A stretch of DNA of 64,000 nucleotides. Source: Glutamicibacter ardleyensis (GTDB lineage: Bacteria; Actinomycetota; Actinomycetes; Actinomycetales; Micrococcaceae). Each line of letters opens with the position of its first letter. Positions within the stretch are counted from its first letter, which is position 1. This document shows positions 4,931 through 63,839 of this stretch, piece by piece. The translations under genes and the position numbers were made by a program. The notes beneath the pieces were generated by a model. That model was not told where the DNA came from and did not search any database. It was given only the letters and a program-made list of their open reading frames with translations. The stretch is taken from positions 1-64,000 of the forward strand of contig NZ_BMKX01000006.1 of NCBI RefSeq assembly GCF_014644555.1, written 5' to 3'.

Positions 4931-7606
4931 CTAAGTATGCCTTTGCCAAGATACAGGTACCGAACCGGAAGTCTCGTCGAGAATTTCGTCGGTAATCGGC
5001 GTTGCATCGCTGACCGGAAGCAATTGGCGGCGATCGGTGATGCCCAGCTTCGTGTAGGAACGCTGCAAGTGTCCTTCGACCGTCCGAGGCGAGAGGAATA
5101 GCTCCTCTGCGATCTCCTGGTTGCTCGCGCCACGGGCTGCTAATACGCAGGTAGCGTACTCCCGCACGGTTAGCAGTGAGCGGACGATGCGCCCACGACC
5201 CAGCGACGGTGTGTTGACCTCTGCTAGCGGGCTAGCCAGTTCCGCAGAGAGAGCCACCAGCCGCGTCGCGAGCTTCCGCTGGCCCAAGTCTCTGGCCCGG
5301 ACCGCGGCGCGATGGGCGACTTCACCTGCATAAAGCAGCCGGCCGGCCGAAACATGAGCTTCGGCTAGCAAGCGTACGTCTGCTTCGGTGGGCGAATCCA
5401 TGACCCGCGCATACTCGGCGAACGTTTGCGCCATAGGCCCCTGAACCTGCGCGGCAGTTTCACTGAGCTGTGTCGCATCCTCTACGAGGTGCAGTCTCCA
5501 GGCGTCATGGAGCAATTGCATCCGTAGCAGCTTGCGGCCGAATTTATCGGCGAGGGCCAAGCATTGTGCCAAGTGTTCCTGCGCTGCCGCACGGCCTTCA
5601 AGCTCCAAGATCACGGGCAGCAGGTAACGCTGGGCCATGGGCCGCATGATCTGCCCCGCTACCTTGGGTGCGGCGCATGCCATGGCGTAGTAGCGACCCG
5701 CCTTTGCTGAATCGCCAACCATCACCGCACCGGCTGCGGCAAAGGACGCAGTGAAGCCCGCGACCAGGTATGGGTCGGACACCGAAATCAAAGCCAGGGC
5801 CTGCTCCAACGCATCCAGTGCGCGGAGCCCCAGCCCCTGTTCCAAGAACTCGACGCCCCAGCCTGACAAATAGTTCGCCGGATTCAATGCAACGCTCGTG
5901 AAGTCTATGGCGGCCAGTGTCTCGGTGAATTCCGGCCCACCGCCTCCGACGCTGGTCATCACCGCCAAGATGGCATAAACCAATTCGGACTGGACGGCAG
6001 GGGAGGACTTCTTCCAGAAATCCCCTTTAATCAATCCGGACAGCTCCTGGAGCGAGTCCACCGGTCTGCCGGCGTAGCAATCCTCGATGAGCACATGTGC
6101 CAGGCAAGCGGCGCGCAGTTCGGGGGTGATGCTTGAATCCGCCGCATACTCGCGTAGCTTCACGGAATCCATCGCCTGCTGTGCCCTGCTGAGCAGGAGC
6201 AATCGGTAGGCCCGGATCTCGGCCGGATTCTCCGGCCAGGAATCAATGATCTCCGTGGCCAAGTCGATGCGGCCCAATCCCGCAAAGGCAATATTGGCCG
6301 CAACACCACGCACTTTCGCACTGCCGGTACCGAACAAGGGCTTGAGCACCGCCAACGCTGCCTCCGCCTTGCCCAGCTCGTAAAGGGCGTCAGCCCGAAG
6401 TACCAGGATCTTCTCCAGCTTGCGCTCATCCGTGTATGACGAGTGCTCGATCGAATCGGTCAAGGCAACGACCTGCGCAAAATGCCTGGCCTCGGCCGAT
6501 CCCACCACATCTTCGAATAGCTCGTCCGCTGAAACATCAAGCCCCAGCTGCACCCGATGCCCGGTGAACCATGCACGAGCCTGGGAAGTCAGCTGCTCGC
6601 GAGGGAACGCCTTGTCGGCGCGCTGGAGGTAGCCACGCAACTTGGTTTGCGTCAACGTGCTCAAGACCGTCTGCGGAGCCAGCCCGGAACTCAGTGCGAC
6701 TGCCAATTCGCGCTCGCCGGTCGCGTCATCTTCGGATAGGACGACCAGCTCGACAAGCCTTGAATCCAGCACTTCGGGCAGTGCATCGCCGAGTAGCCGC
6801 TTGGCGAGCGGATAATGCAAGCGGCCCGTAACCGCCAGCAATTCGATGGCCTCGCGGATTTCGTGTGGCTGTTCATGCAGTCGGGAGGTGATGAGATCCG
6901 AAATCCTGGGTCCCTGAGGGATCCACCGCCGATCCAGGGTCCAATAGGATCTCTGCAGGGTCAGTGCATTCGCAGTTTGGGCATCCAAAGTCAGCTCGCG
7001 CAAATGCAAAGCGTTCCCGCCCGAGAATTCCAGGAGAGCTTCGACGGTGCTGGTATTCACCTGGCCGCCGAGCACGCCATTGAGCGTGGCCTCGGCATCT
7101 TCATAGGACAGCGCGGAAAGTTCCACGCGCTGGGTCTGCGGGCCGGCACGCAGATCCCGCAAGGACTTGGGGAGCCGGTGAACCGCGGTGGTTGCCATCA
7201 CTAGGAGGATATTCCGTGTCAGGGATAGCTGTGCCAGCACGGCGGCGCTTTGCTCGTCGGTGTATTCTGCTTGGTCTAGGAATATGCACAGGGGTTGCTT
7301 TGAGGTGTACTGGAATAGCTCCGAAAGCATCACACCCGGGGTGAAGTTTGCGTTGCTCGTGGGTAACTGTGCGCAGAGGGCAGTCAGCATCGCGAAGGGA
7401 ACACCCTGGATCGCCTTGGCAGCAGTGAGCCAATAGACGTTTCCGTCTGCCTCGGCGAGGAGCTGATGTGCGAAGGTCGTGCGTCCGCTCCCGTGTTGCC
7501 CAATGACAAATACCGCGGCCCTCTGGGCAGCCGCCGCACGTGCACTTTCGTAAGCACCTTGAAGCGATGGAAGCACCGCCGGTAGCGGGCTGAGCGGACC
7601 AGTCAT
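4931..7606 (-). CDS. Large ATP-binding LuxR-family transcriptional regulator (LAL type)
   Basis: A protein of 891 residues with an N-terminal STAND-type ATPase module, a long helical middle of repeat-like segments (TPR-like, about 340-780) and a C-terminal LuxR/GerE helix-turn-helix (about 815-870: REYATCVLAARGASNQEIAE, then LFLSPRTVEGHL). This is the architecture of MalT/LAL regulators, which bind ATP and an inducer before activating transcription. The Walker A region is GQHGSGRTT (36-44), with Arg where Lys is expected; a Walker B-like strand LCIFLDQAEY follows at about 108-117. The Arg may weaken ATP hydrolysis. It stands alone, flanked by intergenic DNA, so no target operon is suggested by position. 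The start at ATG 7606 lacks a strong ribosome binding site but gives the complete ATPase module. Confidence 0.85.
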   Translation of the reverse strand: MTGPLSPLPAVLPSLQGAYESARAAAAQRAAVFVIGQHGSGRTTFAHQLLAEADGNVYWLTAAKAIQGVPFAMLTALCAQLPTSNANFTPGVMLSELFQYTSKQPLCIFLDQAEYTDEQSAAVLAQLSLTRNILLVMATTAVHRLPKSLRDLRAGPQTQRVELSALSYEDAEATLNGVLGGQVNTSTVEALLEFSGGNALHLRELTLDAQTANALTLQRSYWTLDRRWIPQGPRISDLITSRLHEQPHEIREAIELLAVTGRLHYPLAKRLLGDALPEVLDSRLVELVVLSEDDATGERELAVALSSGLAPQTVLSTLTQTKLRGYLQRADKAFPREQLTSQARAWFTGHRVQLGLDVSADELFEDVVGSAEARHFAQVVALTDSIEHSSYTDERKLEKILVLRADALYELGKAEAALAVLKPLFGTGSAKVRGVAANIAFAGLGRIDLATEIIDSWPENPAEIRAYRLLLLSRAQQAMDSVKLREYAADSSITPELRAACLAHVLIEDCYAGRPVDSLQELSGLIKGDFWKKSSPAVQSELVYAILAVMTSVGGGGPEFTETLAAIDFTSVALNPANYLSGWGVEFLEQGLGLRALDALEQALALISVSDPYLVAGFTASFAAAGAVMVGDSAKAGRYYAMACAAPKVAGQIMRPMAQRYLLPVILELEGRAAAQEHLAQCLALADKFGRKLLRMQLLHDAWRLHLVEDATQLSETAAQVQGPMAQTFAEYARVMDSPTEADVRLLAEAHVSAGRLLYAGEVAHRAAVRARDLGQRKLATRLVALSAELASPLAEVNTPSLGRGRIVRSLLTVREYATCVLAARGASNQEIAEELFLSPRTVEGHLQRSYTKLGITDRRQLLPVSDATPITDEILDETSGSVPVSWQRHT

Positions 7607-7828
7607 AGGCTCAAGTTAGTACCGTCCAAGCCTGACGGTCAAGTAACCTATCTCAAAAGACAGGTAGCAGTGCGGGTAGGCGGCAGACGCTTGACTCGCC
7701 TATCCTACGCGTGCGCCTGATTCGGCGGTGCAAGGGAGGACTATAACCGGCTCCGGCTATGGTCCTGCGTCAGATATCCCCGTCTCTTTCACGAGAACGA
7801 AAATCGAGATCAGCAGTTCGCCAAGTTA

Positions 7829-7877
7829 AGAAAAAAATCAGCCTGATCCAAGTATTTCGTTTTGGATCAGGCTGATT
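7829..7877 (-). terminator. Terminator of the first tRNA-His
   Basis: Perfect 15-base arms (AATCAGCCTGATCCA with TGGATCAGGCTGATT) around a 12-base loop. Read on the minus strand it is followed by a run of seven Ts. A close copy lies at 8089-8136. Confidence 0.85.
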
Positions 7878-7884
7878 GCCTTTG

Positions 7885-7958
7885 GGTGAGTAACGGGGCT
7901 TGAACCCGCGACCTTCTGGACCACAACCAGACGCTCTACCAACTGAGCTATACCCACC
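7885..7958 (-). tRNA. tRNA-His (GTG), copy 1
   Basis: Folds as a full cloverleaf on the minus strand: acceptor stem GTGGGTA/TACTCAC, D arm GCTC...GAGC, anticodon arm TCTGG-TTGTGGT-CCAGA with anticodon GTG, and T loop TTCAAGC. It has the additional G at position -1 paired with C73, the identity mark of bacterial tRNA-His. The bases after C73 read CAA, so the CCA end is not encoded here, unlike in copy 2. Confidence 0.95.
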
Positions 7959-8021
7959 ATAATTACTTTGCGACTAGTCGGAAGCTACAAGCTTCGGAAC
8001 TCGTTTCAAGCAACGAGAAAT

Positions 8022-8027
8022 ACTATA
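8022..8027 (-). promoter_or_regulatory. -10 element of tRNA-His copy 1
   Basis: TATAGT on the minus strand inside TGTATAGTATTTCTCGTTG. The same block recurs at 8281-8286 in front of copy 2, which marks it as a conserved promoter core. A -35 box is not obvious. Confidence 0.5.
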
Positions 8028-8088
8028 CATGTATCTGGGGTGAAACTAATAATCGGGGTGTCATCTAGCTAGAGCCATTTTTAAGGAA

Positions 8089-8136
8089 AACAAAAAACGG
8101 TCTGATCCACAACTTTCGTTTTGGATCAGACCGTTT
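8089..8136 (-). terminator. Terminator of the second tRNA-His
   Basis: Perfect 15-base arms (AAACGGTCTGATCCA with TGGATCAGACCGTTT), loop of 12, followed on the minus strand by Ts. The loop-proximal halves of the arms are identical to those of the terminator at 7829-7877. Confidence 0.85.
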
Positions 8137-8139
8137 GTC

Positions 8140-8216
8140 TGGGGTGAGTAACGGGGCTTGAACCCGCGACCTTCTGGACCACAACCAGACGCTCTACCAA
8201 CTGAGCTATACCCACC
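8140..8216 (-). tRNA. tRNA-His (GTG), copy 2
   Basis: Identical in the mature part to the copy at 7885-7958 (anticodon GTG, G-1:C73 pair), but here C73 is followed by CCA, so the 3' end is encoded. Two adjacent tRNA-His genes, each with its own promoter core and terminator, indicate a tandem duplication of a unit of roughly 257 bases. Confidence 0.95.
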
Positions 8217-8280
8217 ATGTTCACTTCGACACTAGTCATTCCGCTTTTGCGAGCTGATTTCGTATCTGGCAACGAGAAAT

Positions 8281-8311
8281 ACTATACACATATCGAGGGG
8301 GTGAGTGCCAA
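8281..8311 (-). promoter_or_regulatory. Promoter of tRNA-His copy 2
   Basis: On the minus strand: TTGGCA (8311-8306), a 19-base spacer, then TATAGT (8286-8281). The block downstream of the -10, up to CAACGAGAAATACTATACA on the plus strand, is shared with copy 1. Confidence 0.4.
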
Positions 8312-8317
8312 CTTGAA

Positions 8318-8364
8318 AGCCCCCTAAATCGCTGTGTTGTGCATCACCTGCGATTTAGGGGGCT
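8318..8364 (-). terminator. Terminator of orn
   Basis: Perfect 15-base arms (AGCCCCCTAAATCGC with GCGATTTAGGGGGCT) around a 17-base loop. It begins 10 bases beyond the orn stop codon. Confidence 0.8.
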
Positions 8365-8373
8365 GACTAGTGC

Positions 8374-8988
8374 TTACTTTTCCCCGATGGCGCTTACCTG
8401 AGCGGCGATTTTGCGTGCCTGATCGCTAGTTGGTCCGGGGGAGGGCACCATGATGGCCGCCCGGTAGTAGCGAAGCTCGTCAATTGAATCCTGGATATCA
8501 CCTAACGCACGGTGGTTGCCGGTCTTGGCGGGAGCCGCGTAGTGCGCTTTGGTGAACCAGCGTCGGCTCAGTTCCTTCAGGGTGGAGACGTCGATGATGC
8601 GGTAATGCAGGTGGTTAATGATTTCTGGCATGTCGCGAGCCAGGAAGTTCTTATCGGTGCCTACGGAGTTTCCTCCAAGCAGGGCCTTGTTGGGCTCTGG
8701 GACGTGCTTACGGATGTAGTCCATGACCAGGCGTTGGGCCTGTTCCATTTGCATTCCGCCGTCGAGTTCCACCAGCAAGCCGGAGACCTGATGCATATTG
8801 CGAACGAAGTCATCCATCTGTGCCAGAGCCGCATCATCAGGCTTGATGACCACCTGGATGCCCTCGTCAATGATGTTCAAGTCCGAATCGGTAATCAGTA
8901 CCGCTACCTCGATCAACGCATCATTGACCAGGTCTAAACCGGTCATTTCGCAGTCGATCCATACTATTTTCTCTGAGTTACTAGCCAC
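8374..8988 (-). CDS. orn: Oligoribonuclease
   Basis: 3'-to-5' exonuclease that degrades RNA oligomers of two to five nucleotides, including pGpG, to mononucleotides in the cytoplasm. The 204-residue protein starts almost directly with the Exo I motif, WIDCEMTGLD, with the metal ligands Asp12 and Glu14. The Exo II region NSVGTDKNFL and the Exo III region HRALGDIQDSI (His and Asp of the DEDDh type) follow in order. The length is normal for Orn, with a short Lys-containing tail. It is a single gene between the tRNA-His pair and the mannosyltransferases, with its own terminator at 8318-8364. Confidence 0.96.
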   Translation of the reverse strand: MASNSEKIVWIDCEMTGLDLVNDALIEVAVLITDSDLNIIDEGIQVVIKPDDAALAQMDDFVRNMHQVSGLLVELDGGMQMEQAQRLVMDYIRKHVPEPNKALLGGNSVGTDKNFLARDMPEIINHLHYRIIDVSTLKELSRRWFTKAHYAAPAKTGNHRALGDIQDSIDELRYYRAAIMVPSPGPTSDQARKIAAQVSAIGEK

Positions 8989-56724: not shown

Positions 56725-58026
56725 CTAACCGCCGAAGAGCGGTGCGAGGTTCTTGATCAGTTGCTGGATGCCCAGCGCAATGAACAGTATCGCGGTAATA
56801 GCCAGAGCAGTGTTGGTGTGCCAACGGTTGGCCCAGCCCTTAGGGATTCGCTTGCCGTTAAGCAGGCCAAGCAAGGTGATCGCCAAGAATGGCATGAACA
56901 GCGAGCCGAGCACGCCGTAGGCCAAGATTAGCGCGATTGGCTTGTCCAGCAAGAACAAGACCATTGGCGGGAAGGTCAGCCAGAGTACGTAGAACTTGAA
57001 GTACTTGCCACCGGTCATGGTGTCTGGGTGGCCAGCTGGCTTCTTGCGCATGTGGCCCCAGAAGTCAGCGAACATCAGCGAAACACCGTTCCATACACCG
57101 ATGATCGAGGAGAAGGAAGCGGCCCAGAAGCCCACAAGGAATCCGGTGCCTACAAAGGTGCCGTAACGTTCGTTGAGCACATCACCCAAGTCCAGCAGAC
57201 CGCGGTCGCCTGCGGACAAGGAAACGCCAGCAGCCTGAACTACTTCGGCGCCCACAATCAGCATGGCAATCACGAAGATGCCGGTCATGACGTAAGCCAT
57301 CGAGTTGTCGATACGCATCACACGCATCCACTTTGGGGTGTACCAGCCCTTTTCACGCAGCCAGTATCCGTAAGCAGCCAGGGTAATAGTGCCGCCGACA
57401 CCGCCGGCTAGTGCCAGGGTGTAGACCACGCCGCCGGACGGAATCATTGGAACAAGTCCCTTGATCATCTCCGGGAAGTTCGGCGCAGCAATGACTGCCA
57501 AGCCAACTACGGTAATGAACATGATGCCCACCAGAACCGCGGTGACCTTCTCAAAGAAGGAGTACTTGCCGAACCAGACCATCGCAAAACCGGCCAGGCC
57601 CATCAGGACTGCCCAAATTTTCAAATCCACGGCCGGGAAGAGTGCTGCCAACGGCATGGCCGCAGAACTCATCGCGGTGGCGCCGTAAACGAAGCCCCAA
57701 ATGATGATGTACGGACCGAAGTACCAGGTGGTCCACTTACCAAGGGTCTTCCAACCCTCAAAGATGGTCTTTCCGGTGGCCAGTGTGTAACGTCCGGCGC
57801 CTTCGACCAAAACGATTTTGAGGATGACACCCAAAATCACTGCCCAAAGTAGGGCGTAGCCGTACTGGCTACCCGCAACCAAGGTGGCGACCATATCGGC
57901 TGCGCCTACACCGGTTGCCGCAACAACCAGACCCGGTCCGACAATCTTCCATTTTGGTGGACCGCCACCGTCGCGGTCGCCCTGAACCGCGGCGTCTGAA
58001 GCGCCCGGCTGCTGCTGTTCGGCCAT
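56725..58026 (-). CDS. Nramp-family transporter lacking the canonical metal-site motifs
   Basis: A 433-residue membrane protein with about 11 helices and the Nramp fold landmarks: GPGLVVAATGVGAADMVATL in helix 1, QYGYALLWAVILGVILKIVL in helix 2, and GTGFLVGFWAASFSSIIGVW in a later helix. The DPGN motif of helix 1, whose Asp and Asn bind Mn or Fe, is replaced by GAADM, and the MPHN motif of helix 6 by LAAYGYW. A divalent-metal role therefore cannot be assumed: it may carry Mg or something else, as other Nramp-related clades do. I start at ATG 58026 (AAGG upstream); an upstream frame to 58122 looks non-coding. Single gene with a strong terminator. Confidence 0.8.
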   Translation of the reverse strand: MAEQQQPGASDAAVQGDRDGGGPPKWKIVGPGLVVAATGVGAADMVATLVAGSQYGYALLWAVILGVILKIVLVEGAGRYTLATGKTIFEGWKTLGKWTTWYFGPYIIIWGFVYGATAMSSAAMPLAALFPAVDLKIWAVLMGLAGFAMVWFGKYSFFEKVTAVLVGIMFITVVGLAVIAAPNFPEMIKGLVPMIPSGGVVYTLALAGGVGGTITLAAYGYWLREKGWYTPKWMRVMRIDNSMAYVMTGIFVIAMLIVGAEVVQAAGVSLSAGDRGLLDLGDVLNERYGTFVGTGFLVGFWAASFSSIIGVWNGVSLMFADFWGHMRKKPAGHPDTMTGGKYFKFYVLWLTFPPMVLFLLDKPIALILAYGVLGSLFMPFLAITLLGLLNGKRIPKGWANRWHTNTALAITAILFIALGIQQLIKNLAPLFGG

Positions 58027-58282
58027 GAATATAATCCTTAAAAGTTTTTGCTCGTTTCCGGTGCGAGTACCGGTGTCCGTGATCGGTTTACGTGAGGTAA
58101 AAGCTACATTGATTTTCATCACGCCAACATGAGAGACAGATCTAATGTATGGGTGAGCCAGCCCATATCCAACATGTGCGCCAAATCTTAAGACTGTCTT
58201 AGGAAACCGTTCGGTCAGTTATTCGTTTAGCCCAGCTGATAAAGTGCATCTGGGTGCGTGGTGCACCAGAGATCGAAGGGAC

Positions 58283-58948
58283 ATGACCTTGCAGCTGCTT
58301 ATCGTCGAGGATGACGACGCCGTCGCGACGGCCCTGGTCGACGCCGTGGCAGCTGCCGGACATACGGCAATCTGCGTGGCCCGAGGGGCCGATGCGCTGC
58401 TGCGGCACCGCGAAGCGCAGATGATCCTGCTCGATTTGGGCCTACCGGACATGGATGGGCTCGAGGTTCTGCGCAAGCTGCGACTTATCACCAGTAGTCC
58501 GATAGTCATCCTCAGCGCCCGCGATGATGAACGCAGCGTCGTTCGAGGACTGCGCCAAGGCGCCGATGACTATTTGGTTAAACCCATTGGACTGACGGTG
58601 CTTCTGGCACGCATTGAGGCTGTGGCCAGGCGTTCGCAGCTCAGCTCGAGTTCCAGTAGCGAATTGCAGGTTGGTGAACTGCGTATCGATTTAGATAAGC
58701 GAACCGCCGGGTTGGGGGAGCGGTCACTGAATCTGACAGCGAAAGAGTTTGATTTGCTCTCCTTGCTGGCACAACATGCAGGCTCGGTCGTGACCCGCGA
58801 ACAAATACTCGACGCGCTGTGGGGAGACGCTTTCATAGCGGTTTCCCGTTCCTTGGACGTACATCTGACGGGGCTGCGCGCCAAGCTGGACAGTCCGGGA
58901 ATGATCATCAACGTGCGCGGAGTCGGCTACCGCATCGAGGCCCCGTGA
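58283..58948 (+). CDS. OmpR-family response regulator
   Basis: A 221-residue protein: receiver domain (about 1-115) with acidic pair in LLIVEDDDAVATAL, phospho-acceptor Asp51 in MILLDLGLPDMDG, Ser/Thr in IVILSARDDE and Lys in YLVKPIG. The C-terminal OmpR/PhoB winged helix (about 128-220: LNLTAKEFDLLSLLAQHAGS, and SRSLDVHLTGLRAKL) follows. I start at ATG 58283 (GAAGGGAC upstream). The gene overlaps the histidine kinase by four bases (GTGA), so they are co-translated. It would control target genes in answer to the kinase and TAXI protein downstream. Confidence 0.93.
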   Translation: MTLQLLIVEDDDAVATALVDAVAAAGHTAICVARGADALLRHREAQMILLDLGLPDMDGLEVLRKLRLITSSPIVILSARDDERSVVRGLRQGADDYLVKPIGLTVLLARIEAVARRSQLSSSSSSELQVGELRIDLDKRTAGLGERSLNLTAKEFDLLSLLAQHAGSVVTREQILDALWGDAFIAVSRSLDVHLTGLRAKLDSPGMIINVRGVGYRIEAP

Positions 58949-60369
58949 GACGCCGCGTCATTCTCATCTTGGGTTCCTTGCTGGCGTTGTTAGTGATCAT
59001 CGTTTCCGGCGTGCTGATGCAAAATGCGAGCGTTGATGCCACCCAGCAACTGCGGCTGACCCGTGCCGCGTCGCTGAACCGTTTTGTTCAGCTGGCGGCT
59101 TCCCTGGATGCGGATCATGGCAAATTGCAACAAGAAATGGATACCTACTCACAGCTCTACAACGAGGGGCTGCTGATACGGATGGATCAGCAGACCTTCA
59201 CCTCTGGGAGTATCGATCCGCGTGACCCGCAGGTTCAACAGGTGGTTGAGAACACCGAACTGAATCTAGGACACACCGATATTGACACCATCAACCCTTT
59301 ATCCAACGACAAGTCGCTCATCGCTCGGCCTTATGGCAATTCCACCCAGGTGCTGGGCGCGGTAATTATGCAGGTAAATCTCGATTCTGCCCGAGAACTG
59401 GTTTTGCAACGCTGGGTGCTGGTGGTGTTAGTCAGCCTGACCGCAGGCTCAGCCTTATTGCTTCTGGCAGATCGAGTCACCACCTGGGTATTACGACCTA
59501 TCCACCGGCTCAACGAGGCGACCAAGGCCCTAGCTGCAACAAAAACCGCGGCGCCTTTAGAAGCTGCCGGCCCGCCGGAACTACGGGAATTGGCACGTTC
59601 TTTTAGCACCATGGCTCAGGTGATGACCGCTAGTTTGGCGCAGCAGCGCGAACTTATCGCCGAAACCTCACATCAGTTGCGCAACCCGGTCGCCGCCTTG
59701 CGACTACGCGTGGATCTTCTGAAAATGCGGCTCGGCGACGAGGCGGATCCGCAAGGGGTGCGGGCGGTGGAGAAAGAACTGCGAAGAGTCGAAACCCTGT
59801 TGGACGCGGTGCTGCGTTTGGCCAGCGCCGACCACCGACTCTCTGAGCTCACCGCTGGCACTACGCTGGCCACGGGCGTTGCCGACTCCGCGCCGGTCCC
59901 GGTACGTGATTTGCTCATCGAAGAAATTGAGCGGCGGACCGAGAGCGCCCGCAACACCGGCACGGAGTTATTGTTCAACTCGGGCCAAGAAACTGAATTC
60001 TGGGTAAGTTGCAACGAATTCGAGCTGCAGCAAATGATCGCCGAACTCTACGAGAACTGCCTGAAATATGCTCCGGGAGCACCGGTGCTTACGAGCCTTA
60101 CCGCCACGGAACAAATCGTCGAAATCATCATCAGAGATCACGGACCGGGGCTGCGCACCAAGGACTTAGCCTTGGTCACCGAGCGTTTCTGGCGGGCGGA
60201 TCCCACCGGGGCAAGCCCCGGAACTGGTTTGGGCATGGCGATTGTGGAACGTCTGGCCCAAGCTAATGGCGGCGAACTGATCGTAGAGGCCGGCGTTGGT
60301 GGCGGACTGCAGATGAGACTTCTTCTGCTACGCAGCGCTGCACCGAGACAGGGGGTGCACCTTGGGTAA
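58945..60369 (+). CDS. Sensor histidine kinase
   Basis: A 474-residue membrane kinase. N-terminal helix (about 3-22, VILILGSLLALLVIIVSGVL), an external sensor domain (about 25-150), second helix (LVVLVSLTAGSALLLLA), HAMP-like linker, HisKA domain with phospho-acceptor His243 in LIAETSHQLRNPVAALRL, and HATPase domain with YENCLKYAPG (N box), DHGPGL (G1) and GTGLGMAIVERLAQANGG (G2). I start at GTG 58945, overlapping the regulator stop codon; an open frame extending upstream to 58819 is a shadow of that gene. It ends eight bases into the TAXI gene. Confidence 0.92.
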   Translation: MRRRVILILGSLLALLVIIVSGVLMQNASVDATQQLRLTRAASLNRFVQLAASLDADHGKLQQEMDTYSQLYNEGLLIRMDQQTFTSGSIDPRDPQVQQVVENTELNLGHTDIDTINPLSNDKSLIARPYGNSTQVLGAVIMQVNLDSARELVLQRWVLVVLVSLTAGSALLLLADRVTTWVLRPIHRLNEATKALAATKTAAPLEAAGPPELRELARSFSTMAQVMTASLAQQRELIAETSHQLRNPVAALRLRVDLLKMRLGDEADPQGVRAVEKELRRVETLLDAVLRLASADHRLSELTAGTTLATGVADSAPVPVRDLLIEEIERRTESARNTGTELLFNSGQETEFWVSCNEFELQQMIAELYENCLKYAPGAPVLTSLTATEQIVEIIIRDHGPGLRTKDLALVTERFWRADPTGASPGTGLGMAIVERLAQANGGELIVEAGVGGGLQMRLLLLRSAAPRQGVHLG

Positions 60370-61333
60370 ATCACCGGCTATTGGCGCGCGAACTATCGGA
60401 CGCAGACAGCTACTTCGCTGGGGTGGACTCTCGCTGATGGGTGCCGGGCTGGCCGCTTGTTCCGCCGGGCCGTTGATTCCGCGGCTGGATGTCGCCGGGG
60501 GTGAAAACGGCGGCATGTATTTTGAATTCGCGACCTTATTGTGCGAGGCACTGGTCAAATACAAGATCGCCGAAAACTCCGAGGCGTTGATCACCGAGGC
60601 CAGCGTCGAGAATCTGAAACTTTTGAAGAATGGGACAGCAGGACTTTCGCTGGCACTGGCCGATACTGTGGCCCAACTGAGGCCTGCGGAGAGTTCTTTA
60701 GTTGCCTTGGGGCGTGTGTACCAAAATTATTACCACTGTCTGGTGCCGCGAGAAAGCAGCATCCGCACCTTGGCAGACCTCTCCGGGCGCAGGCTCGGCA
60801 CCGGAGCCCCCGGGTCAGGTACTTGGGTCACCGGGCAGCGCATCCTTAATGCCACGGGACTCGATACCGCTATGCGTAGCCCTCGTGAACGCCAGCTCGG
60901 CTACGTTGGCGGGCTGAAAGCGCTGGAAGAAGGCAGCATCGATGCTCTTTTCCTTTTCGGCGGGATCCCTGTAAGTTCGATTACCGAGTTGGAACAACGT
61001 TTACCACTTCGGCTGATCAGTATGTCCTCGGTACTCCCGCGCTTGCGCGAAGAATACCCGCGGCTCTACGAGCCGGTGATAATCCCGCAAGACACTTATG
61101 CCGGGGTAGCACAGGTCGATACCGTCGGAGTGGCCAACCTCTTGATGGCTAACGTGTCCTTGCCCGATTCGGTGGTCTCGGCGGTAGTTGAACTCTTGGT
61201 CAACCATGCGCGCGAACTCATTCCACGTAACAGTGCGGGAATACAATATTTGACCCCAGATACACTGATCTCAACCGGCGGCCAGCCATTGCACCCGGCG
61301 GCGCAAGCCGCATACCGCAGGCTCCATGGATAA
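60362..61333 (+). CDS. TAXI-family lipoprotein, solute-binding component of a sensory system
   Basis: A 323-residue protein starting at TTG 60362. The N-terminus combines a twin-arginine motif (GRRQLLRWGGL, about 13-23) with a lipobox (GAGLAACS, Cys at about 33), so it is exported folded and anchored in the outer leaflet. The rest is a TAXI periplasmic-type binding protein: DVAGGENGGMYFEFATLLCE, RLGTGAPGSGTWVTGQRI and EEGSIDALFLFGGIPVSSI, the usual ligand-binding loops. No TRAP permease (DctQM/fused) is beside it. It overlaps the kinase gene by eight bases, so the likely job is to present a ligand, perhaps an organic acid or amino acid such as glutamate, to the kinase. Confidence 0.85.
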   Translation: MGKSPAIGARTIGRRQLLRWGGLSLMGAGLAACSAGPLIPRLDVAGGENGGMYFEFATLLCEALVKYKIAENSEALITEASVENLKLLKNGTAGLSLALADTVAQLRPAESSLVALGRVYQNYYHCLVPRESSIRTLADLSGRRLGTGAPGSGTWVTGQRILNATGLDTAMRSPRERQLGYVGGLKALEEGSIDALFLFGGIPVSSITELEQRLPLRLISMSSVLPRLREEYPRLYEPVIIPQDTYAGVAQVDTVGVANLLMANVSLPDSVVSAVVELLVNHARELIPRNSAGIQYLTPDTLISTGGQPLHPAAQAAYRRLHG

Positions 61334-61371: not shown

Positions 61372-62688
61372 ATGCCAAAAACGCACTCCTATGAATTGAT
61401 GCAAGAAGAAGTCGTAGAGATTTGCCGCAAGCTGATCACCATTGACACCACAAACTTCGGCGATAACAACAGTCGTGGAGAGCGCGAAGCAGCAGACTAC
61501 ATTGCGCGCCTACTGAGCGAGGTCGGGTTGGACTCGACCATCTACGAATCAGCACCGGGACGAGCCAATCTGCTCACCCGCATTCCAGGCAGTCACCGGA
61601 GCTTGCCCGCGCTGGTGGTTCACGGACATCTAGATGTAGTGCCCGCTATCGCCGAGGACTGGTCCGTGGATCCCTTCGGAGCGCAAATTATTGATGACAT
61701 GATCTGGGGTCGTGGCGCCGTCGATATGAAAGACATGGACGCGATGATCGTCGCCGTGATCAGACACCTGATGCGGGAGAAGATCAGCCCGCGTCGAGAC
61801 CTGATCATTGCATTTTTCGCGGATGAAGAAGCCGGTAGTGATTATGGCTCCCTGTGGATGGTTGAGCAGCATCCAGAACTCTTCGCCGGAGCGGGCGAGG
61901 CGATCAGCGAAGTGGGTGGTTTTTCTACCGAAATCGCAGGGCAACGCGCATATCTGGTACAAACCGCTGAGAAGGGCATCGCTTGGATCAAACTTGCAGC
62001 TCATGGCGTGGCTGGCCACGGTTCACAGCTAAATGAGGAGAACGCGGTAACTCGCTTGGCGTCGGCAGTTGCGCGCATTGGCGAGTATCAGTGGCCGCTT
62101 TCTTACACGAAAACCACCAGAGCGCTATTTGAAGAACTCTCTGAAATCTCCGGGATTGAGTTCGACGAAGATCATCCCGAGCCGCTGCTCGAAGCGTTGG
62201 GGAACACCAGCCGCTTTGTTGGCGCCACCTTGCAGAACACCTCAAACCCGTCGGTACTCAAGGCCGGGTATAAACACAATGTGCTGCCTGGTTACGCTGA
62301 GGCGCTTATCGATTGCCGAACCTTGCCGATGGAACATGAATCGACACTGGCGACATTGCGGGAACTGGCGGGGGAGCATGTTGAGGTCAGCCTGCTCCAA
62401 GACCAGCAGTCTTTGGAAGTACCCTTCAGCGGCGAACTAGTGGAATCCATGGTTGCGGCGTTAAAATCCGAAGATCCGCAGGCCGTGGTGCTGCCCTACA
62501 TGCTCTCCGGTGGTACCGACAACAAAGCGTTAGCAAAGCTTGGTATCACTGGGTACGGATTTGCTCCGTTGCAGCTGCCTAAAGACCTCGACTTTACTGG
62601 CATGTTCCATGGCGTGGATGAGCGGGTGCCGATCTCGGCCCTGAAGTTCGGAACCCGTGTGCTTGACCGTCTACTTAGAAACTATTAG
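61372..62688 (+). CDS. M20-family metallohydrolase
   Basis: A 438-residue zinc hydrolase. Metal-site motifs: VHGHLDVVP (His86, Asp88), GRGAVDMK (Asp118), catalytic base and ligand in FFADEEAGSDYG (Glu152-Glu153), a late His in FAPLQLPKDLDFTGMFHGVDE. The internal dimerisation lid lies at about 200-310. Relatives are dipeptidases, acylases and deacetylases (ArgE/DapE/ACY1/CPG2 family); the substrate is unknown. Its ATG has AGAGG about nine bases upstream. It follows the TAXI gene by 38 bases and precedes an acyl-CoA dehydrogenase by 11, so the three-gene signalling unit could share transcription with it. Confidence 0.9.
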   Translation: MPKTHSYELMQEEVVEICRKLITIDTTNFGDNNSRGEREAADYIARLLSEVGLDSTIYESAPGRANLLTRIPGSHRSLPALVVHGHLDVVPAIAEDWSVDPFGAQIIDDMIWGRGAVDMKDMDAMIVAVIRHLMREKISPRRDLIIAFFADEEAGSDYGSLWMVEQHPELFAGAGEAISEVGGFSTEIAGQRAYLVQTAEKGIAWIKLAAHGVAGHGSQLNEENAVTRLASAVARIGEYQWPLSYTKTTRALFEELSEISGIEFDEDHPEPLLEALGNTSRFVGATLQNTSNPSVLKAGYKHNVLPGYAEALIDCRTLPMEHESTLATLRELAGEHVEVSLLQDQQSLEVPFSGELVESMVAALKSEDPQAVVLPYMLSGGTDNKALAKLGITGYGFAPLQLPKDLDFTGMFHGVDERVPISALKFGTRVLDRLLRNY

Positions 62689-62699
62689 GAGCCTCCCGC

Positions 62700-63839
62700 G
62701 TGACAATTGAAGAACTACTAAGCGATCAACTACTTGAACGGATCCGCGCACGAGCCGCGGAATACGACGCGGAGAACAGCTTCGCCACCGAAGACTTCGA
62801 AGAGTTGGTCGGCTTAGGGTACTTAAAGGCGCTGGTGCCCGAATCCGCCGGTGGTCTGGGCTGGAGCTTCGAACAGCTGGTGCTTGCTCAACGTCGACTG
62901 GCGACGGCGGCTCCGGGCACCGCGTTGGCGATCAATATGCATCAGGTCTGGGCCGGGGTCGCATACTTGCTTGCGGCACGCGGAGATATGCGGCTGAACA
63001 TGGTTACCGACTGGATCACAGACGGAGAAGTGATGGCCTTCGGGATTTCGGAACCTGGTAATGATTCAGTGCTTTTTGATTCAAATACCGTGGCGGACAC
63101 CGCGGCCGATGGTTCGGTGGCCTTCACCGGAACCAAGATCTTCACCTCACTTTCTCCGGCTTTTACTCGACTGGGAATCTTTGGCAAGGATGAGCAGACC
63201 GGGGAGTTAGTTCATGGCTTTGTGGCACGCGGAGAAAAAGTCCGCTCGCTGGGGGACTGGAACACCTTAGGAATGCGGGCGAGCCAGTCGCACACCACCA
63301 AATTAGAAGGCGCGGTGGCGCCGGCGGCCTGGGTGCATTCCAGATTGCCGGTCGGACCCAACGCGGATCCGCTGATCTTCGCAATCTTTGCGTCCTTCTT
63401 AACGCTCACCGCCAGCGTGTATGTCGGGATGGCTGAACGTGCGGTAGAGCTGAGCCAAAACGCGCTGAACAAACGCACCCATCAAGACGGTAGTAGTTAC
63501 ACCCAAGACGTTCGAGCTCGTGGTCTACTAGCCCAGTCAGGGATGCGGATGCTGAGCCTAGACGCACTGCAACACGCGGTAGCCAGCGACCTGGAATCAC
63601 GCGTTGATCATGGCGAGGGTTGGTTCCCGCGGCTAGTGACGCTACGAACTCTGGCCGGACAAACCGCGCGAGAGAACGTGGAAACTGCCGGCCAATTGCT
63701 TGGTGGTGGCGGATACTTCCGAGGCAGTGAATTTGAACGCCTCTACCGAGATGTGCAGGCCAGCTGGTATCACCCCTCAAATGCTGCCTCGGCGGAAAAC
63801 ACCGTGGCTAGTTGGCTGGTGGGCCCACTAGAGTCCTGA
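62700..63839 (+). CDS. Acyl-CoA dehydrogenase-family flavoprotein
   Basis: A 379-residue protein of the acyl-CoA dehydrogenase fold: GLGYLKALVPESAGGLGWSF at the start, VMAFGISEPGNDSVLFDSNT (flavin-contacting loop), FTGTKIFTSLSPAF, RASQSHTTKLEG, and near the end AGQTARENVETAGQLLGGGG, YFRGSEFERLYRDVQASWYH. The catalytic Glu usually found before the last helix is not obvious; GGYFRGSEFERLYRDV is where the ExxxR/GGxG pattern lies. The substrate could be an acyl-CoA or a sulfur compound (DszC/SoxC-like relatives share this start). GTG start behind GGAG, 11 bases after the M20 gene, so in one unit. Confidence 0.85.
   Translation: MTIEELLSDQLLERIRARAAEYDAENSFATEDFEELVGLGYLKALVPESAGGLGWSFEQLVLAQRRLATAAPGTALAINMHQVWAGVAYLLAARGDMRLNMVTDWITDGEVMAFGISEPGNDSVLFDSNTVADTAADGSVAFTGTKIFTSLSPAFTRLGIFGKDEQTGELVHGFVARGEKVRSLGDWNTLGMRASQSHTTKLEGAVAPAAWVHSRLPVGPNADPLIFAIFASFLTLTASVYVGMAERAVELSQNALNKRTHQDGSSYTQDVRARGLLAQSGMRMLSLDALQHAVASDLESRVDHGEGWFPRLVTLRTLAGQTARENVETAGQLLGGGGYFRGSEFERLYRDVQASWYHPSNAASAENTVASWLVGPLES

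Follow-up and report, generated by a model that had tools for sequence, protein, structure and literature searches.

A TAXI-family lipoprotein as the probable co-receptor of a GluK-like histidine kinase in Glutamicibacter ardleyensis and related actinobacteria

The stretch of Glutamicibacter ardleyensis DNA analysed here (contig NZ_BMKX01000006.1, positions 1 to 64,000; hereafter the window, 64,000 nucleotides in all) is part of a 3.94-Mb genome, the completeness of which is rated 100%. Near its end the forward strand carries three consecutive genes, encoding an OmpR-type response regulator (RR; 58283..58948, ATG to TGA, with PF00072 and PF00486), a sensor histidine kinase (HK; 58945..60369, GTG to TAA, with HAMP, HisKA and HATPase_c domains in Pfam) and a solute-binding lipoprotein of the TAXI family (60362..61333, TTG to TAA, TIGR02122). 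Alternative longer in-frame starts are present at 58244 for the RR and at 58819 for the HK. The initial annotation regarded the three genes as one overlapping unit and as a ligand-presenting sensor rather than a transporter. Direct reading of the sequence bears out the overlaps, which are of 4 bases (GTGA) between RR and HK and of 8 bases between HK and TAXI.

The arrangement is strongly conserved. In a survey of named relatives (the best 80 of 248 confirmed, by title all Micrococcaceae, the closest being Arthrobacter sp. MYb213 and MYb229 and Glutamicibacter species), RR, HK and TAXI occur together in 79 of the 80 loci; L205 is without the RR. No TRAP permease was found in the locus stretch of any of the 80. 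The TAXI gene starts inside the HK gene in 72 of them, with an overlap of 8 bases in 48, 4 bases in 23 and 1 base in one, and this conservation is more than chance. Within the genus, 18 genomes including that of the window were compared. The order divergent NRAMP-like gene, RR, HK, TAXI, M20 peptidase and acyl-CoA-dehydrogenase (ACD)-like gene is kept in all 16 other loci retrieved. A TAXI orthologue was counted in 17 of the 18 genomes, the match in G009 being too weak to include. G009 lacks the whole RR–HK–TAXI block and retains both the NRAMP-like gene and the M20–ACD–UppP flank; between NRAMP-like gene and M20 other genes take its place (L157, 9073–11383), one of them, by eye, like nrdF, for a ribonucleotide-reductase small subunit. 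In one further genus locus (L050 of G013, 7589–8541) the TAXI gene is broken into two overlapping frames by a frameshift or a sequencing error, and RR and HK appear intact. Together with wider loci, the synteny survey that had been proposed for Actinobacteria thus gave a strong result, and the arrangement is seen widely in this group.

A phylum-wide draw comprised 48 listed matches, namely the window's own, 14 others of the class and 33 from outside the class. Amongst these listed matches, 13 of the 14 class members adjoin an RR–HK pair and one (L075) adjoins a TRAP permease; outside the class, 21 of the 24 loci retrieved adjoin TRAP and none of the 24 has a kinase of the window's HK family next to TAXI. 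Two-component genes other than these lie close to TAXI in two of the outside-class loci, L100 and L101. A further 60 loci were picked by hand from the matches listed, most of them from a list sorted by the kinase-linked TAXI profile, so that the 47 with a kinase are no population figure; the remaining 13 all have a TRAP permease.

The TAXI protein scores 174 bits with TIGR02122 (cut-off 84.35). Its domain class is NMT1_3/TAXI, and it is not recognized as a TctC-family (Bug) binding protein. The predicted structure (pLDDT 92.6) has the TAXI fold of TtGluBP, with 1us4 as the best fold match (E 3.1e-23, TM 0.83); another fold match is AioX (6esk). The N-terminus, IGRRQLLRWGGLSLMGAGLAAC, contains by eye and by pattern a twin arginine and a lipobox-like LAAC, as the initial annotation had claimed for a combined Tat and lipobox signal. 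The arginine pair and lipobox pattern recur in 72 of the 80 named TAXI N-termini, and six of the other eight show, by eye, an N-x-C variant. In L077 and L052 the kinase-linked TAXI protein appears, by eye, to be anchored by an N-terminal transmembrane helix in place of a lipobox, another means of tethering. A C-terminal TAXI-like match elsewhere in the genome (C1:374687-374857) was set aside, there being no larger fitting frame around it.

Phylogeny separates the kinase-linked TAXI proteins from those of transporters. A tree was built of 114 TAXI sequences drawn from both the phylum and the class survey (62 kinase-linked, 49 TRAP-linked and three others), leaving out L106–L111 and TAXI pieces below 700 bases and representing the window's genus by the window sequence only. 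One branch, supported at 100/99 and recovered in all 200 bootstrap trees (100%), separates the 62 kinase-linked proteins from the 49 that adjoin TRAP and the three others. The two kinds therefore differ by descent and not by neighbourhood alone. The split holds even in the 16 loci that contain both, with one kinase TAXI and one or two TRAP-permease TAXI genes. In L260 and L262, a tandem TAXI pair precedes one TRAP permease and adjoins a kinase that has its own, third TAXI.

Six positions distinguish the two classes. The clearest is R319, a candidate contact site: an arginine in 95% of the 62 kinase-linked proteins, it is acidic (Glu or Asp) in 37 of the 49 permease-linked ones. The position of VcGluP Q93 fails to separate the classes (amongst the kinase-linked, leucine in 26, alanine in 21 and glutamine in seven; amongst the permease-linked, glutamine in 24 and leucine in 18), and assignment of a ligand from pocket residues was rejected.

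The kinase is predicted from Pfam and from the structural model to consist of a transmembrane segment, a small outer PAS/Cache-like domain, a second transmembrane segment, HAMP, HisKA and HATPase_c. The AlphaFold model of its N-terminal 223 residues has a pLDDT of 84.5. Amongst the chains compared, the modelled outer domain is nearest to that of WalK/YycG (5is1, VIA Z 11.7), and Foldseek matches are weak. No 2CSK_N-type domain was matched in the HK by Pfam, and the best paralogue in its own genome reaches only 64 bits. The outer part can be aligned across kinase-linked loci. Its distances correlate with those of TAXI beyond what the RR accounts for (partial r 0.64, against 0.56 for the catalytic part), a weak argument for a link between outer domain and TAXI.

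Genome-wide searches agree with the absence of a transporter partner of the expected kind. The model PF06808 (DctM-type TRAP permease) has no match in the genome of the window and detects such genes in seven of 14 control genomes. TIGR02123 (fused TRAP permease) likewise has none there and none above its cut-off in any of the 18 genus genomes, with weak matches of 38–79 bits in seven of these; it detects in six of the 14 controls. The fused DctQM protein (TRAP_fused) of a TAXI-TRAP transporter is accordingly missing from the matches in this genome. GltS (PF03616) was not matched in it either, and this model detects in two of the 14 controls. After these searches, a TRAP or GltS partner encoded elsewhere in the genome was rejected. 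The earlier statement that TAXI has no TRAP permease thus stands both at the locus and across the genome, and an orphan TRAP permease of the matching subfamily, which had been named beforehand as evidence that would overturn the sensor reading, was searched for in the genome and not found.

On the other side of the RR, the minus strand carries a divergent NRAMP-like permease (56725..58026; PF01566, 126 bits; NF037982, 257 bits), the proposed target of the RR and putative importer of the sensed solute. The region between the two genes contains an element of about 20 bp, TCTTAAGACTGTCTTAGGAA (58186..58205, plus strand), a CTTAA-N6-CTTAG repeat which we propose as the RR operator. It is the single strongly conserved element in a footprint comparison of 17 NRAMP–RR intergenic regions. 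Of the 18 genus genomes, 16 contain a single copy, 15 of them at the RR–HK–TAXI locus and G005 elsewhere; a reversed control pattern gave five matches, and no copy was found in G009, the genome without RR–HK–TAXI. The genus pattern was built from the same sites that it finds, and loci outside the genus are the independent test. There, a weight matrix from the 17 genus sites matches 65 of 69 named loci, against one match in 345 shuffled loci.

The element marks the promoter of the transporter. It lies there in 76 of the 80 named loci, and in all 15 loci with a codirectional permease ahead of the RR it precedes the permease, not the RR. Matches in L195 and L199 are included in the count, their coordinates placing both between permease and RR. 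The four loci without the element (L185, L205, L222 and L223) are all without an adjacent transporter; L223 is classed in this way despite a permease match at a distance of 2.2 kb, and the figure would otherwise be 76 of 77. The element also precedes genes for MHS-type metabolite:H+ symporters in L086, L259, L296 and L298, and in L287 an NRAMP-like gene of another family. As these loci are related to one another, their counts cannot be taken as independent, and changes in gene order and in transporter family provide the stronger argument.

The transporters themselves are unrelated: NRAMP-like, a KgtP-like MFS protein, a TAXI-TRAP operon or an amino-acid ABC system. Each of the 16 other genus loci retrieved has the NRAMP-like gene next to the RR. 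Across the 80 named loci, the RR neighbour is an MHS symporter in 64 (49 divergent, 15 codirectional), an NRAMP-like permease in 13 and neither in three. The MHS proteins match best with PRK10406 (450 and 528 bits for the two tested, below the cut-off of 550), which is presumably KgtP, the 2-oxoglutarate permease. The 47 wider kinase loci amongst the matches listed include nine with MHS, one with an NRAMP-like gene (L287) and 15 with a TAXI-TRAP operon; in 22, none of MHS, NRAMP-like or TRAP is in the stretch, ABC genes not having been scanned there. In nine genomes that are Streptomyces-like by size (7–10 Mb) and gene order, kin of RR and HK face a divergent polar amino-acid ABC system, with the ABC ATPase gene in all nine stretches and all four ABC genes in eight. 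Here TAXI is convergent after HK, or one gene further on in L080. The placing of the RR–HK pair and the ABC genes matches that published for gluR–gluK and gluABCD. Identity to one of these loci, L076, is 44% for the RR and 29% for the HK, and the outer domains align.

The motifs DPGN in the first and MPH in the sixth transmembrane segment form the metal site of Slc11/NRAMP proteins. Both are replaced in the window's NRAMP-like protein, when aligned to solved Nramps, and also in its homologues, so that it does not qualify as a metal transporter on these motifs; across the family (56725–58026 of the window, L157–L164 and L287), DPGN reads GA(A/G)D and a conserved GGVGGTIT segment stands for MPH. 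The substrate is probably not a metal. PF01566 outgroups with a diverged metal site are reported in PMC10606218. In L161 and L163, pta and ackA adjoin the NRAMP-like gene. A RamB-like regulator, isocitrate lyase and malate synthase are often found just past TAXI in the named loci L184–L252, and the retrieved stretches include isocitrate lyase in 43 and malate synthase in 32 of the 80. Glutamate is a ligand of several TAXI proteins, according to PMC11574862 and PMC12344293. These neighbours, the KgtP-like permeases and the glutamate reported for GluK and TAXI proteins point to a short carboxylate or glutamate as ligand, with the odds about evenly balanced.

Downstream, 38 bases after TAXI, the window encodes an M20 hydrolase (PRK07906 type) and an ACD-like protein (61372–63839), then UppP and MshC. 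The M20 and ACD-like genes are 3' of TAXI in all 16 other genus loci. They were rejected as members of the unit, as they persist in G009, where RR–HK–TAXI is gone; kept there and leading on to UppP–MshC–PAC2, they are apparently old neighbours. Cotranscription with TAXI across the 38-base gap is possible. Promoter and terminator scans gave no result exceeding chance; a -10-like TAAAGT is present, by eye, at 58240–58245.

Taken together, the comparisons support a reading in which the TAXI protein is probably a dedicated co-receptor of a GluK-like kinase that controls a swappable, adjoining carboxylate or amino-acid transporter. Tethered to the cell membrane, the lipoprotein would bind on the outside a small solute of carboxylate type, plausibly glutamate, 2-oxoglutarate or another short carboxylate, and control kinase activity by docking on the HK's small PAS/Cache-like outer domain. 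The HK would phosphorylate the RR, which may bind the element at 58186–58205 and set expression of the divergent transporter, the direction of this regulation being one that we infer, and probably also that of its own operon. The initial description as a dedicated sensor, not a transporter, is sustained in its first part by synteny and by the separate clade; it needs amendment in that a transporter of another family nearly always adjoins, with a common promoter element.

Several observations weigh against this co-receptor reading. TAXI is on the opposite strand in the Streptomyces-like loci, so there is no translational coupling there, and the element was not found in those loci. Amongst wider kinase loci with MHS or NRAMP-like genes, the element reaches at least 11 bits in four of 10, and it was not found in the six others, which have MHS. 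Known glutamate-site residues are only partly conserved in TAXI. GluK itself is reported to bind glutamate (PMC9739842), which would make TAXI possibly dispensable.

A permease adjoins the cassette in 76 of the 80 named loci, and a TAXI protein without a TRAP permease has been published with GltS (PMC12344293). TAXI might thus serve in uptake, passing its ligand on to the adjoining non-TRAP permease, its proximity to the kinase reflecting co-regulation only. We regard this as rather unlikely, as the permease family varies (MHS, NRAMP-like, ABC, TAXI-TRAP) whereas HK–TAXI is constant, TAXI overlaps HK and not the permease, and HK–TAXI is retained in the four named loci without an adjacent permease. 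Moreover, in the 16 loci with a TAXI-TRAP neighbour that operon supplies a TAXI for itself, the ABC system likewise includes a binding protein, and GltS has no match in the genome of the window. A double role, with TAXI both feeding the permease and signalling to the kinase, has a published precedent in BctC of Bordetella (PMC5812351). It seems quite improbable here: one TAXI clade stands beside unrelated permease families and 16 loci have two separate TAXI, which implies divided labour. Very improbable is metal sensing or import, in which the divergent gene would be an ordinary NRAMP metal importer and TAXI minor or unrelated; the matches to PF01566 and to NF037982, a model named for a divalent metal transporter, favour it, whereas DPGN and MPH are replaced in the protein and its homologues and a metabolite:H+ symporter uses the same slot and element in relatives.

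A broader proposal is more tentative, and we think it somewhat more likely to fail than to hold: that this TAXI lineage left transport to become an obligatory third component of GluR–GluK-type systems (GluR–GluK would thus be three-component), that one operator serves swapped transporters, and that NRAMP relatives without the metal site import an organic or amino acid. If TAXI does act as co-receptor of the kinase, this would add a missing component to the studied glutamate system of Streptomyces and account for TAXI proteins annotated as parts of TRAP transporters in genomes without TRAP permeases. It would also predict an operator for Micrococcaceae and offer a route to the substrate of an orphan NRAMP outgroup. 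Binding-protein-dependent kinases are already known; no report of a TAXI protein in this role was found amongst the results listed from the open-licence literature.

Amongst known systems, AioX–AioSR, GlnH–GlnX–PknG and MtrAB–LpqB each join a kinase with an extracytoplasmic binding protein or lipoprotein acting upon it, the accessory proteins being of other families; MtrAB–LpqB shares the order RR–HK–lipoprotein. TAXI-TRAP transporters (TtGluBP, VcGluP) have the TAXI fold and family in common with the window protein, which differs in its separate clade, its R319-type changes and the lack of a detected TRAP permease. TAXI has been proposed to work with GltS in Bordetella pertussis (BP0403), likewise a case of a TAXI lipoprotein without TRAP whose gene overlaps that of its partner (PMC12344293); in the window the overlapping partner is a kinase and GltS is unmatched in the genome. 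In the TTT systems TctC/BctC with TctDE/BctDE, as in the unit described here, a binding protein would signal to a kinase controlling a transporter, BctC signalling to BctE and also feeding its transporter (PMC5812351). The binding-protein family and the transporters differ, and the window HK has no 2CSK_N-type match; because binding protein and kinase domains differ, the window system is not a member of the BctC–BctE family. The parallel to TctC/TctDE drawn in the initial annotation therefore holds as a functional likeness only, there being a closer relative by homology and gene order.

That relative, the nearest characterized one judged by homology and gene order, is GluR–GluK of Streptomyces. 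In S. coelicolor (SCO5774–5779), gluABCD faces gluR–gluK and GluR binds upstream of the divergent gluA (PMC10345050); the word TAXI is absent from the reviews PMC10345050 and PMC9739842. The window has a homologous OmpR-type RR and an HK with a homologous outer domain, and its pair, too, would control a divergent transporter. It differs in that TAXI is in the same operon and overlaps HK, and in that the place of the divergent gluABCD is occupied by an NRAMP-like gene instead of an ABC system.

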